A DNA stretch of 64,000 bases from Gemmatimonadota bacterium (GTDB lineage Bacteria; Gemmatimonadota; Gemmatimonadetes; Longimicrobiales; Gaopeijiaceae). The DNA is taken from positions 1 through 64,000 of the forward strand of contig JAURER010000013.1 in the NCBI GenBank assembly GCA_030827315.1, given 5' to 3'. Numbering within the stretch: position 1 is the first letter of the stretch; every line of letters starts with the position of its first letter. The notes beneath the pieces are model-generated. The model ran no database searches and had not been told where the DNA came from. It saw nothing but the letters and a program-made list of their open reading frames with translations. Of the stretch, positions 22,073 to 26,936 are shown in pieces. Both the position numbers and the translations under genes were made by a program.

Positions 22073-23134
22073 CTACTCCACGCGGATGGTTCCGGCCGGG
22101 CCTTCGCCCACTTCGCCGATCACGGCGAGGGCGGGGGTCCGGCCCTCGAGTCGCCGCAGGAGCGCGTCGAGCCTGTCCGGCGGCACGGCCATGAGCATCC
22201 CACCGGAGGTCTGCGCGTCCGCGAGCAGGACGTGCAGAATCGGGTCGACGGAATCCGCGAACGTCACTGCGCCGCGCACGTCCTCGAGGTTCCGTGTGCT
22301 GCCACCGGGCACGTGCCCGCCCTTCGCCAGCTCCACCGCGCCCTCGAGGAGCGGTACGTCGGCCGCACGCAGGGTCGCCGAGGCGCTCGACGCGCGGAGC
22401 ATGCTCCGGAGGTGTCCGAGGAGGCCGAAGCCCGTGACGTCCGTCGCGGCAGAGACACCGATCTCGGCCATGGCCGATGCGGGTGCCGCGTTGAGTGCGG
22501 TCATGACGGCGACGGCGCGCTCGATCTCCGTATCCGTGGCGTCCCCGCGCTTGAGCGCCGTCGCGATCACCCCGGATCCCAGCGGCTTGGTGAGCACCAG
22601 GCGGTCGCCCGGGCGCGCCCCGGCGTTGGTGACCATGTGCGCGGGGTGCACCTCGCCGACCACCACGAGTCCGTACTTGGGCTCGGCGTCGTCGATGGAA
22701 TGTCCGCCCAGTACCGGCATGCCGACGGAACGGGCGACGTCGTTCCCGCCGCGCAGGACCTCGTCGAGTATGCCGTGTGCGAGCAGCTTCCGGGGAAAGC
22801 CCACGAGGTTGAGCGCGAAGAGGGGTCGCGCGCCCATCGCGTAGACGTCGGACAGCGCGTTGGTGGCGGCGATGCGCCCGAAGTCGTAAGGGTCGTCGAC
22901 GATGGGCGTGAAGAAGTCTGCCGTCACGACCAGCGCGCGGTCGTCGGCGATGCGATAGACGGCCGCGTCGTCTCCCGTCAGGTGGCCGACGAGGACGTTC
23001 GGATCGTCTACCGGAACGATGTGACGCAGAACCTGCGTCAGCTCGGACATGCCGAGTTTACACGCTCAGCCGGCGCCGTGGCTGAGCTGGGACAGCCGGA
23101 TCTCCGGCCGTTGATCCCTGGGCTCGCTTGCCAT
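22073..23134 (-). CDS. selD: Selenide, water dikinase SelD, itself a selenocysteine (UGA) protein
   Basis: SelD makes selenophosphate from selenide and ATP. From ATG 23134, behind GAGGAG, the frame reads IRLSQLSHGAG, then TGA at 23066-23068, then ACKLG and the rest of a complete SelD, 353 residues counting the UGA. The TGA is residue 23 and falls where E. coli SelD has catalytic Cys17; Lys26 matches Lys20. Downstream marks are GDDAAVY, DFFTPIVDDPYDFGRIAATNA, GGHSIDD, TDVTGFGLLGH and DAQTSGG. A perfect 7-bp hairpin follows the UGA by 26 bases. Starting at ATG 23050 would drop both catalytic residues. Sec-containing SelD is known in other bacteria. The gene is convergent with lon. Confidence 0.93.
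23023..23039 (-). promoter_or_regulatory. bSECIS element of selD
   Basis: On the minus strand GACGCAG, loop GTT, CTGCGTC form a perfect 7-bp stem with a 3-nt loop whose first base is G. The loop starts 33 bases after the UGA codon, within the known bacterial SECIS range. SelB would bind it to decode the UGA. A nearer 5-bp hairpin (23042-23056, loop CATGT) lacks the G at the loop start and is the weaker candidate. Confidence 0.75.
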
Positions 23135-23210: not shown

Positions 23211-24107
23211 ATGCCTCGGACGCGCGCCACCCTCGTACCGCACGGACCCGTGAGCCCCCTTCAGCGATCTCCGAGACAGCTTCTCGCGGAAGAGCTCTCC
23301 CGCTCGGAGTCCGAGATGAACCTCGCCCGGGCTGCGCTCCTGGTGGCGTCCGAGGAGTACCCGCAGCTCTGCGTCGACCTCTATCTCGCCAGGCTCGATC
23401 AGGTCGCCGAGGAGGTGAAGGACCGCCTCGCGAACGAGACGGCGCCGCTCGTCGTGCTCGACGAGGTCATCCGAACGCTGTACGTGCGCCGAAAGCTCTC
23501 CGGTAACCGCGACGCGTATTACGATCCGCGCAACTCCTTTCTCAACGACGTGCTCGATCGCGGGGTTGGAATTCCCCTGACCCTCGCCATCGTACTTCTC
23601 GAGGTTGGCTGGCGACTCGACCTCCCTCTGGAGGGCGTGAACTTTCCAGGCCACTTCCTCGTGCGCTACGCGGGGAGTGAGGTACGCCTGCTGATCGATC
23701 CGTTCGACGGCGGCAGGATCCGATTCGAGGACGAGGCGCAGCAGCTGCTCGACCAGGGGTACGGCGGCGTGGTCGCCATGCGCAGTTCGTTCCTCCGACA
23801 CGCTTCCCGGCGGGAGATGCTGGTCCGACTGCTCACGAACCTGAAGGGGATCTACGCGCGCGTCGGCGACGACCGCCGTGCGCTCGCCGTCGTGGACCGT
23901 CTCCTCATGATCCGCCCGACCGCACCGCCCGAGAGCCGGTCCAGAGGGATGCTGCTCGCCCGCCTCGGACGGCACGAGGAGGCCGTCCGTCAGCTCGAGG
24001 CGTACCTGCGCGTGTCGCCGACCGCGAAGGATCGTGACCAGGTGCTCGAGGTCGTCCAGGCGCTGCGTTCGGGACGCTTCGCGGACGACGCGGGAGAGGC
24101 CGAGTGA
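23211..24107 (+). CDS. SirB1 family protein (transglutaminase-like with TPR)
   Basis: A 298-residue cytoplasmic protein. The N-terminal two thirds is the SirB1-type transglutaminase-like fold (YYDPRNSFLNDVLDRGVGIPLTLAIVL, then EGVNFPGHFLVR), in which the classical Cys is replaced. The C-terminal third has tetratricopeptide-like helices (LLTNLKGIYARVGDDRRALAVVDRLL and LARLGRHEEAVRQLEAYL). The biochemical role of the family is not settled. It starts 76 bp from selD, divergently, and its stop overlaps the start of the YgfZ gene by GTGA, so the two are co-translated. A later start at Met 36 (MNLARAAL) is possible. Confidence 0.82.
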   Translation: MPRTRATLVPHGPVSPLQRSPRQLLAEELSRSESEMNLARAALLVASEEYPQLCVDLYLARLDQVAEEVKDRLANETAPLVVLDEVIRTLYVRRKLSGNRDAYYDPRNSFLNDVLDRGVGIPLTLAIVLLEVGWRLDLPLEGVNFPGHFLVRYAGSEVRLLIDPFDGGRIRFEDEAQQLLDQGYGGVVAMRSSFLRHASRREMLVRLLTNLKGIYARVGDDRRALAVVDRLLMIRPTAPPESRSRGMLLARLGRHEEAVRQLEAYLRVSPTAKDRDQVLEVVQALRSGRFADDAGEAE

Positions 24108-25240
24108 GTGTGGGCGCTCCGGTGCAGGCAAGCCCTCTGCTGCCCCTGCTCCTCGAAGCCGGTGGCATAGCGGCGGAGTATCACGGTACCCGGCTCGTGC
24201 GCCACTTCGGAGACCCGGGAGCCGAGTACCGGGCCGCGGTCGAAGGTGTGGCCGTCTTCGACCGCGGTCACCGCACGCGGCTCGTCGTGTCGGGTCGTGC
24301 CCCGGGCCAGATGCTCAGCGGGGTCCTGACCGGCGTAATGCCCTCCCCGCCGCACGAGGCGGAACCCGGGGTCGAGACGGGCGTCGCGAGGTACCAGGCC
24401 GTGCTCACCCCGAAGGGCAAGATGATCAGCGACTGCGTCGTGCTGCTGCCGGGTGACGAGCAGACGGCAGGGTTTCTGCTCGACGTGCCGGCGGCGGGAC
24501 GGGAAGGGCTCCTCGCACACTTCGCGCGCTTCCTGCCTCCGCGATTCGCGGCGGTGAAAGACGTGTCCGCCGCACTGGCGTCGATCTCGGTGGCCGGCCC
24601 CGGAGGAGCCGTGGCCCTCGCGAAGCTCGCGCTCGGCCTTTCGGTCGACCCGGCGCGGATGGAAGACGTCGAGGAGGGCCTCTGGTGGGCCCGGCATCCG
24701 GCCCGCGAGAGCCTGATCGTGGTCCGCAGCCGAGACGTCTGGCCTCCGGCGTGGACCGTCTACGGGCCGGTCGAGTCGGTGGCGGCGCTCTGGCGTGCGC
24801 TCGTGCGCGAAGGTGCCGCGCCCGCGGGTCTGGGCGTCTGGCAGACCCTCGGGGTGGAGGCCGGCCGGCCGGTGTTCGGCACCGACATGGACGAGGACAC
24901 GCTGCCGCCTGAGGCGGGCATCGTGGAGCGCGCCATCGACCAGACGAAGGGGTGCTACACCGGTCAGGAGGTCATCGTGCGCATCCGCGACCGGGGACAC
25001 GTGAACCGGCACCTGCGGCGGCTTCTGCTCGGTGACGTCCCGGCACCCGCGCCCGGCACGGAGCTGCATGCCTGTGACGGCGAGGGGAAGGTGGTCGGGA
25101 AGGTGACTTCGTCGGTCCAGTCGCCTCGGTTCGGAGGCGTGGCCGCGCTCGCTTTCGTCCGCCGTGGCGTCCGGCGCGTCCGGCTCGGGGAGCTCGAGGT
25201 CGAGGTGCCCGACGACTTCCCGGGGCCCGAGGCTCCGTAG
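24104..25240 (+). CDS. ygfZ: YgfZ/GcvT-domain folate-binding protein
   Basis: A 378-residue member of the GcvT/YgfZ fold. The diagnostic K-G-C-Y-T-G-Q-E motif is present at about residues 284-291, near the typical position, after AGIVERAIDQT. YgfZ acts with tetrahydrofolate in maintenance of iron-sulfur enzymes such as MiaB under oxidative stress, which fits the redox setting. The N-terminal part (HYHGTRLVRHFGD-like, FDRGHRTRLVVSGR) is a GcvT-like fold used for binding rather than glycine cleavage. GTG 24104 overlaps the SirB1-like stop (GTGA). It is convergent with the selenoprotein peroxiredoxin, 47 bp away. Confidence 0.9.
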   Translation: MSVGAPVQASPLLPLLLEAGGIAAEYHGTRLVRHFGDPGAEYRAAVEGVAVFDRGHRTRLVVSGRAPGQMLSGVLTGVMPSPPHEAEPGVETGVARYQAVLTPKGKMISDCVVLLPGDEQTAGFLLDVPAAGREGLLAHFARFLPPRFAAVKDVSAALASISVAGPGGAVALAKLALGLSVDPARMEDVEEGLWWARHPARESLIVVRSRDVWPPAWTVYGPVESVAALWRALVREGAAPAGLGVWQTLGVEAGRPVFGTDMDEDTLPPEAGIVERAIDQTKGCYTGQEVIVRIRDRGHVNRHLRRLLLGDVPAPAPGTELHACDGEGKVVGKVTSSVQSPRFGGVAALAFVRRGVRRVRLGELEVEVPDDFPGPEAP

Positions 25241-25287: not shown

Positions 25288-25935
25288 TCAGCCTCCGAGC
25301 GCGTCGAGTGCCGCGAGGATGTCCGCGTTCTCCGGGCGAATGCGGTAGTTCACCTCCGTCATCTTCCAGCGGACCACGCCGTTCGTATCGATCACGTAGG
25401 TGGTGGGATGCGGGATCGCGCGGCCGCGGGGGTCGTCCTGGTTGAACAGCCCATACCGGTTGATGACGGCGGCACCCGGGTCGGAGAGGAGCGTGTAGTC
25501 GAGCACGAGGCCGTCGTTCTCCTCCGCGACCCGATCGACCATCCGCTGGAGATCCGACGGATCATCGGAGGAGATGGCCGCGAGCTTCGTGGACGCCGCC
25601 TGCTTCTCGCTCAGCATTCCCTGCAGCTCCCCGAGCTGCTGCGCACAGTAGGGTCACCAGTGCCCGCGGTAGAAGACGAGGATCACGTTCTTCGCGCCAC
25701 GAAAGTCGGAGAGCGTCCATGTGGGACCGGCCAGTGAGGCCAGCGCGAAGTCGGGCGCCGGCTCCCCGACCCGAACGCGGTCCAGATCGACGCCGGGAAG
25801 GTCCGCACCATCGACCGGGCCGAGAACGACGACGTCGGGCCGCCGTGTGCCGGTGTCGCCGGCCGGCTCCGCTCCGGTGCCGCATGCGGCCAGCGCCGTC
25901 AGTACCAGCAAGCATGCCGCGCGTCCTCGGATCAT
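25288..25935 (-). CDS. Lipoprotein peroxiredoxin-like protein with in-frame UGA (selenocysteine)
   Basis: Read from ATG 25935, the gene gives a 215-residue protein. The signal peptide ends LTALAAC (lipid Cys18), followed by a thioredoxin-fold AhpC/TSA domain (GEPAPDFAL, VILVFYRGHW). UGA at 25654-25656 is residue 94, followed by P-Y-C97, so the active site is U-x-x-C where homologues have CPYC. Beyond the UGA the fold continues: QLGELQ, LAAISSDDPSDL, YGLFNQDDPRG, PHPTTYVIDTNGVVRW. A perfect hairpin lies 14 bases after the UGA. ATG 25935 overlaps the YpdA stop by 4 bases. It probably reduces peroxides or disulfides at the periplasmic face. A Cys-to-stop pseudogene is less likely because the frame continues intact for 121 residues. 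Confidence 0.9.
25623..25639 (-). promoter_or_regulatory. bSECIS element of the selenoperoxiredoxin
   Basis: On the minus strand GCAGCTC, loop GGG, GAGCTGC form a perfect 7-bp stem with a 3-nt loop starting with G. The stem begins 14 bases after the UGA and the loop 21 bases after it. The same stem length, loop length and leading G occur in selD, although the sequences differ and both lie inside coding sequence. Confidence 0.75.
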
Positions 25936-26936
25936 CCGCCAACTCCCGTCCGGCCCCGGGAGAGCCGGTCCGCCACGATCCGTGCGCCGTGCTCGCGGCC
26001 GTTCTCGATGAAGATCCTGTTCGCATTGTGCCCCGCGGCGATGACGCCCGCGATGTAGAGACCCGGCACGTCCGTTTCCATCGTCGAGGGCTCGTGGGCG
26101 GGAATCCCCGTCTCGTCGTCGATGGCCACACCCAGCGCCGCGAGCTGGGCGTGATCGGAGCGCCAGCCGGTCATCGCCACCACGAAGTCGTTCGCGATTT
26201 CGGTCGTGGCGCCGTCTTCCTCGGACCGCAGCACCACGGAGCCCGGACGGATCTCCGCCACCCGGTGCTTCCAGTACACGGGGATCTCTCCGCGCTCCAG
26301 CCGGTTCGTGATGTCGGGCACCACCCACGGCTTCACTCCACGGTCGATCGTGTCGAGGAAGTGCACCAGGGTCACACGCGCGCCGTTGCGGAACATCTCC
26401 AGGGCCGACTCGACGGCCGAGTTGCCGGCTCCGACCACGAGCACGTCCTGGTCGAAATACGGGTACGGTTCCCGGTAGTAGTGCCGGACCTTGGGCATCT
26501 CTTCCCCCGGAACGCCGAGGAAGTTCGGTGCCTGGAAGCCTCCGGTGGCGACGACGACGGCGGCCGCACCATATTCGCGCTGTGAGCCTTCGGCCTTCTC
26601 GGTGCGCACCGTGAAGCTGCCTTCCGCTCCCTCGATGGCGACGACCTTTTCGTACTGACGCACGTCGAGTTCCCAGTGGCTCACCACCCGCCGGTAATAG
26701 GCGAGCGCGTCCCGGCGCGTGGGCTTCTGGTCGGGAATGGTGAACGGGACGTCGCCGACCTCCAGCATGACCGCCGTGCTGAAGAAGGTCATGTAGTAGG
26801 GGTACGCCACGATGGAGCTCGTGACGCACCCCTTGTCGAAGAGCGCACAGGACAGCCCTGCCTGGCGGGCTGCCGCACCGACGGCGATCCCGCATGGTCC
26901 GGCGCCCACCACGATGAGGTCGAATCGATCGGTCAT
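25932..26936 (-). CDS. ypdA: YpdA family FAD-dependent (bacillithiol) disulfide reductase
   Basis: A 334-residue single-FAD flavoprotein. The FAD motif is GAGPCGIAVGAA with Cys15 in the GPCG position, the residue shown in YpdA/Bdr of Gram-positive bacteria to be needed for bacillithiol disulfide reduction. An NADPH motif GAGNSAVESAL lies near residue 180, GGFQAPNFLGVPGEEMPKVRHY between the domains, and a C-terminal TDVPGLYIAGVIAAGHNANRIFIENG. ATG 26936 begins the canonical N terminus. It is the first gene of a two-gene unit, and its stop overlaps the peroxiredoxin start as ATGA, so the reductase and the selenoprotein are co-translated. Bacillithiol synthesis genes are not in the window. Confidence 0.9.
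   Translation of the reverse strand: MTDRFDLIVVGAGPCGIAVGAAARQAGLSCALFDKGCVTSSIVAYPYYMTFFSTAVMLEVGDVPFTIPDQKPTRRDALAYYRRVVSHWELDVRQYEKVVAIEGAEGSFTVRTEKAEGSQREYGAAAVVVATGGFQAPNFLGVPGEEMPKVRHYYREPYPYFDQDVLVVGAGNSAVESALEMFRNGARVTLVHFLDTIDRGVKPWVVPDITNRLERGEIPVYWKHRVAEIRPGSVVLRSEEDGATTEIANDFVVAMTGWRSDHAQLAALGVAIDDETGIPAHEPSTMETDVPGLYIAGVIAAGHNANRIFIENGREHGARIVADRLSRGRTGVGG

Follow-up and report, generated by a model that had tools for sequence, protein, structure and literature searches.

A Sec-only peroxiredoxin-fold lipoprotein encoded beside a bacillithiol disulfide reductase in a Gemmatimonadota bacterium: lineage synteny and a likely DsbD/TlpA recharge route

The stretch of 64,000 nucleotides from a Gemmatimonadota bacterium that is analyzed here (the window) carries on its minus strand a gene for a bacillithiol disulfide reductase, ypdA, followed immediately by the gene for an exported selenoprotein, an arrangement from which a preliminary description had proposed a pathway linking cytoplasmic thiol disulfide reduction to a periplasmic selenoenzyme. 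Our comparison with relatives speaks against that linkage, given that the selenoprotein tracks DsbD rather than ypdA and that the adjacency of the two genes is not conserved. The reading that we prefer, and regard as probable though well short of certain, is that a lipid-anchored selenoprotein with a peroxiredoxin fold and a UxxC site is likely recharged via a DsbD/TlpA system and sits beside an independent, cytoplasmic bacillithiol disulfide reductase. The pairing with ypdA is mostly a lineage synteny of one Gemmatimonadota subclade.

The selenoprotein gene (25288-25935, minus strand, its TGA stop at 25288-25290 included) encodes, when TGA is translated as U, a lipoprotein precursor of 215 amino acids in which the TGA of codon 94 (25654-25656, minus) must be selenocysteine, as indicated by the translation (VFYRGHW-U-PYC, with Cys97 at +3) and by the homologues; the frame closes with an ordinary TGA stop. 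A TGA at this codon together with a cysteine at +3 recurs in 19 of 19 aligned family members and in all 80 of the best homologues obtained by scanning 84,980 species genomes, which rules out a sequencing error or a pseudogene as the origin of the in-frame TGA. A SECIS-like hairpin of 7 bp with a G-containing loop of 3 nt, located from pair counts, begins 14 nt past the UGA (25623-25639, minus); 98.5% of its cells are paired, none of 500 shuffles scored as high in cells paired or in covariation, its outer pair varies on both sides (G-C, U-A or A-U), and its five inner pairs are present in every sequence of 80 further loci. Since the conserved QLGEL codons also explain most of the inner pairing, the covariation of the hairpin rests on the outer pair. 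By inspection, a lipobox (LTALAAC, Cys18 codon at 25882-25884, minus) follows a hydrophobic signal and is kept in close relatives, and lipidation is predicted; an N-terminal lipobox, signal peptide or transmembrane anchor was likewise read by eye in nearly all full-length family members. The only Cys or Sec residues of the protein are Cys8 in the signal, Cys18 in the lipobox, Sec94 and Cys97. The family extends over Gemmatimonadota, Acidobacteriota, Binatota, records labelled Myxococcota or Deltaproteobacteria and one Proteobacteria bin, and no relative of the selenoprotein was found on viral contigs. Judged by its sequence and those of its homologues, the selenoprotein is real, is Sec-only in our sample and carries an export signal; the earlier reading of the downstream gene as encoding an exported Sec-x-x-Cys protein is thus upheld by the TGA codon, the hairpin and the lipobox, its position at the outer face being a presumption.

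The machinery for selenocysteine insertion is at hand, since selB, tRNA-Sec and selD were all found in the window genome, which is 98% complete. The selD gene (22073-23134, minus) shares the strand at a distance of 2.2 kb, as had been noted, and is context outside the operon: two plus-strand genes, one transglutaminase-like/TPR (SirB1-like; 23211-24107; PF13369, 158 bits) and one ygfZ/GcvT-like (24104-25240; TIGR03317, 70 bits against a cut-off of 49) and convergent with the selenoprotein gene, intervene and rule out its membership, both being recurrent members of the local synteny. The selD gene is itself a selenoprotein gene, with Sec23 in SHGAG-U-ACK (TGA at 23066-23068), and its true start is at 23134, whereas ORF callers begin at 23050, past the TGA; the Sec site is identical in every syntenic relative in which selD was seen.

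Whether the exported protein deserves the name selenoperoxiredoxin, which it had initially been given, is a question that its fold and its active site answer differently. Its AhpC/TSA domain matches PF00578 with 106 bits, and the AlphaFold model (mean pLDDT 89.6) adopts a peroxiredoxin fold whose nearest neighbour is AhpE of M. tuberculosis (1xvw; Z 21.8, rmsd 1.9 over 157 residues, 30% identity), in a ranking built from Foldseek matches only, so that thioredoxin-type folds, missing from the top, may still be close. When aligned to the peroxiredoxin motif PxxxTxxC, however, Sec94 falls at the Thr position and Cys97 at that of the peroxidatic Cys, so the protein lacks the PxxxT/S-xx-CysP (or SecP) motif; moreover, the region of AhpE Arg116 aligns with PHPTT, the catalytic Arg is missing there family-wide, and the His-Pro-Thr loop found instead resembles that of thioredoxin-like proteins. 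All curated NCBIfam families scored below their cut-offs (38.9 against 120 bits for the SelL-related family, 34.2 against 270 bits for PrxU). The earlier label therefore stands for the fold and the Pfam family but not for the placement of Sec or the catalytic Arg. By its sequence the window protein is one in which a thioredoxin-like Sec-x-x-Cys site is set within a peroxiredoxin fold, with predicted thiol-disulfide activity; it falls into an established kind of selenoprotein, within which it represents an exported, Sec-only and apparently unnamed subfamily.

The upstream gene (ypdA, 25932-26936, minus) encodes 334 amino acids that score 410.1 bits against the TIGR04018 profile (curated cut-off 339.9), match the Pfam profiles PF13738/PF07992 and have the YpdA/Bdr entries 7a76 and 7a7b as their most related solved structures; Cys15, the active-site cysteine of GPCG, lies within GAGPCG, as described before us, and no export signal was seen in the protein. 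The equivalent residue in S. aureus YpdA, Cys14, is required there, and ypdA of that species is induced by disulfide stress (PMC6591457). We infer from the sequence an FAD/NADPH bacillithiol disulfide reductase of the ordinary cytoplasmic type. The genes for making its predicted substrate, bshA, bshC and bshB1 (the last above its cut-off), are present in the genome, a finding that rules out a genome devoid of bacillithiol genes, the circumstance under which the proposal had been expected to fall; a BrxA/B-type bacilliredoxin (PF06491) is also present, and bshA, bshC and proteins of the BrxA/B type occur frequently in the family of the organism. Bacillithiol synthesis in Gemmatimonadetes had earlier been inferred from genomes (PMC6282198).

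As had been reported, the stop codon of ypdA overlaps the start codon of the selenoprotein gene as ATGA (25932-25935, minus). The unit so formed adjoins a divergent small gene at its start, and 47 nt separate its end from the ygfZ-like gene, which is convergent with it; the two genes likely form a two-gene operon in the window genome. A promoter and terminator scan of the region returned nothing, with no sigma-70-like site for either gene, a result that is uninformative in this GC-rich phylum. Overlaps of 4 nt of the ATGA type are a frequent junction in operons and are therefore no special evidence of a pathway, the more so because in one relative (G010) ypdA overlaps a DUF427 gene in exactly the same way.

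The gene order of the closest genus is amidohydrolase, small gene, ypdA and selenoprotein, then ygfZ and the SirB1-like gene on the other strand, and then selD, but the junction within the pair varies: the ATGA is confined to the window, with an overlap of 14 nt in G019 and spacings of 35 nt in L103 and 226 nt in G013. Elsewhere the pair is split, either by genes on the same strand (GAF-GGDEF in G005, DUF427 in G007 and G010) or by genes on the opposite one (an S9 peptidase in G001 and G006, a lipoprotein-like gene in G008 and G009, a Vps10/BNR gene in G032). A small conserved lipoprotein-like gene without a Pfam match lies opposite to ypdA between the pair at L074 3528-3902 and L079 4109-4486. 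In G002, G003 and G012 ypdA stands about 76 nt from ygfZ and the selenoprotein gene is gone from that place; three members of the genus (L082, L083, L084) have an otherwise matching ypdA-ygfZ-selD order from which precisely this gene is absent. Two other genomes, G020 and G025, retain the selenoprotein gene together with ygfZ and selD, whereas ypdA is not its neighbour and in G025 stands at a distance of 24 kb. The ygfZ and SirB1-like genes stay beside the selenoprotein and selD across genera (L091, L105 and L106; ygfZ only in L087), even with ypdA elsewhere.

On a broader scale, ypdA lies within 8 kb in nine of 80 homologous loci, eight of them in the window subclade and one at a distance of 6.6 kb, and none was found in the fetched flanks (up to 8 kb, shorter at some contig ends) of the other 71. 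Linkage holds in 11 of the 21 relatives that possess both genes, far above random placement, while ypdA is present in 21 of 22 genomes with the selenoprotein and 32 of 37 without it (59 relatives, Fisher test, p=0.40). Because the linkage is found in one subclade and has been lost there without loss of either gene, we take it to be old in that subclade and mostly a matter of lineage synteny. Conservation of the neighbourhood, on which the original proposal had been made to depend, is accordingly wanting, with linkage in nine of 80 loci, an overlap in the window and G019 only and the selenoprotein absent from three synteny-matched genomes; of the idea that the two genes form one unit, the likely operon in the window survives, and its general extension to relatives, where the junction varies and the pair is split or the selenoprotein lost, does not.

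A different partner follows the selenoprotein more closely. The window genome encodes three DsbD_TM proteins, one of which (L182 6159-6887) forms a pair with a TlpA-like protein that has a WCEQC motif; facing the pair is another exported selenoprotein, whose RTRG-U-T site is PrxQ-like. This DsbD/TlpA pair sits on another contig than the selenoprotein under study. Two exported PF00578 genes on other contigs of the same genome (L182 4860-5453 and L183 5505-6065) have an in-frame TGA at PrxQ-like RTxG-U-TVQM, the former being the one that faces the TlpA-like/DsbD_TM pair. A stretch of about 4 kb in L168 (4630-8534) contains the genes for the PrxQ-like selenoprotein, TlpA, DsbD and the selenoprotein under study, and in the complete genome G017 the same four fit within 8 kb. 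Clusters that combine both selenoprotein genes with genes of the TlpA-like and DsbD_TM types occur in two Gemmatimonadota (L168 4630-8534 and L192 4674-12301). Of the 80 loci, 9 have such a DsbD in their 8-kb flank. Across the 59 relatives a strong DsbD type, defined by a cut at E <=1e-35 that was set once the table had been seen, occurs in 20 of 22 genomes with the selenoprotein and 13 of 37 without it (p=3e-5; p=4e-4 within the family), by Fisher tests that disregard the tree. The strong type tracks selB as well (p=1e-4), a genome that is 99% complete (G032) has the selenoprotein without it, and the association may in part reflect shared ancestry. That CcdA feeds lipoprotein thioredoxins is established for the pneumococcal Etrx proteins (PMC3914529). 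We regard DsbD/TlpA as a more likely electron donor for the selenoprotein than the bacillithiol system. The open-access literature yielded no description of an exported seleno-peroxiredoxin with a DsbD/TlpA partner, nor of such a protein among the selenoproteins of Gemmatimonadota; work reported on ScsB, TlpA and a peroxiredoxin in Caulobacter was not among the hits.

In the scheme that we propose, NADPH-driven YpdA would reduce oxidized bacillithiol in the cytoplasm, an activity suggested by its family, Cys15, the bsh genes and the bacilliredoxin. The lipid-anchored selenoprotein would presumably face the periplasm, with Sec94 and Cys97 as the sole redox-active pair of the mature protein, and would reduce an oxidized envelope substrate, be it a peroxide, a sulfenic acid or a disulfide, whereupon a Sec94-Cys97 selenenylsulfide would form. 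Recharge would run from cytoplasmic thioredoxin to a DsbD-type membrane protein, on to a TlpA-like CxxC protein and finally to the selenoprotein, a route suggested by gene clusters in relatives, by gene profiles and by what is known of CcdA/DsbD. The adjacency of ypdA would be inherited synteny, entailing at most co-expression under thiol stress and no transfer of electrons.

That YpdA and bacillithiol instead feed the envelope selenoprotein, with bacillithiol itself or a carrier crossing the membrane so that the whole is one envelope redox unit, seems to us very improbable. The ATGA overlap, the full set of bacillithiol genes and the linkage in 11 of 21 relatives are in keeping with it, and the mycobacterial protein nearest in fold, AhpE, receives its electrons from mycothiol/mycoredoxin, an analogous thiol system; yet YpdA and the selenoprotein belong to different compartments, opposite-strand genes interrupt the pair in five relatives, three synteny-matched genomes keep ypdA without the selenoprotein gene, 71 of 80 loci have no nearby ypdA, the two genes show no co-occurrence signal, and a membrane conduit with better links, DsbD/TlpA, exists. 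Co-regulation without electron transfer, whereby one response to thiol or disulfide stress serves two compartments, would be compatible with the preferred reading and is less far-fetched, though we still think it rather unlikely. It would account for the operon-like layout that the window shares with a handful of relatives and for a linkage far above random placement, and the disulfide-stress induction of S. aureus ypdA (PMC6591457) agrees with it; where opposite-strand genes intervene, however, the selenoprotein requires a promoter of its own, and the sigma-70 scan, uninformative in a GC-rich phylum, gave no promoter-like site for either gene.

Equally compatible with the recharge scheme, and a good deal more plausible than co-regulation while stopping somewhat short of an even chance, is that the selenoprotein acts in the envelope as a genuine peroxidase, with a peroxidatic Sec and Cys97 as the resolving residue, rather than as a disulfide reductase or isomerase. 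Sec at a nucleophilic site favours the reduction of peroxide, in line with the established chemistry of selenoenzymes, and both PF00578 and the proximity to AhpE (Z 21.8) fit this role, but PxxxTxxC and the catalytic Arg of peroxiredoxins are missing and the W-U-P-Y-C site with its His-Pro-Thr loop resembles those of thiol-disulfide oxidoreductases. A review, moreover, classes UxxC selenoproteins of PF00578 as peroxiredoxin-like thiol:disulfide oxidoreductases (PMC13188914).

A tentative reading that goes further, with the odds still against it, is that Gemmatimonadota possess an obligately Sec-dependent reducing system of the envelope, made up of the UxxC lipoprotein, the PrxQ-like protein and a dedicated DsbD/TlpA pair, whose expression has in one subclade been tied to YpdA through an operon; if so, cytoplasmic thiol stress and the selenium-based defence of the envelope would respond together. 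The subfamily of exported selenoproteins is widespread, and as no member in our sample has Cys where the others have Sec, selenocysteine would seem to be strongly required in the envelope; DsbD/TlpA provides a testable membrane route for its electrons. Given that the linkage to ypdA is not conserved and that co-occurrence is lacking, the link to bacillithiol fits shared regulation rather than a conserved pathway. The lesson of the pairing is that an ATGA overlap by itself is no proof of a shared pathway.

Among known systems, the window ypdA agrees with the YpdA/Bdr family (TIGR04018; 7a76, 7a7b) in its full-length match, its GPCG cysteine and the bacillithiol genes of its host, and differs in nothing that was compared, the selenoprotein neighbour being lineage-specific. 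With the peroxiredoxin-like UxxC selenoproteins (PMC2398784, PMC13188914) the exported protein shares PF00578 and a UxxC site read through UGA, whereas it is exported and anchored and its subfamily has Sec without exception across the 80 loci, in contrast to the 'Prx-like 1' family with its 2,740 Cys homologues (PMC2398784). AhpE lacks a lipobox, and its Thr-x-x-CysP and catalytic Arg correspond to Sec-x-x-Cys and a Pro in the window protein. The membrane-anchored, presumably outward-facing Cys(Sec)-x-x-Cys site, probably recharged via a conduit of the DsbD/CcdA type, is what it has in common with ResA, StoA and Etrx (PMC3914529), from which it departs in its peroxiredoxin-type fold, in the Sec at the N-terminal position of the motif and in a conduit encoded outside the operon.
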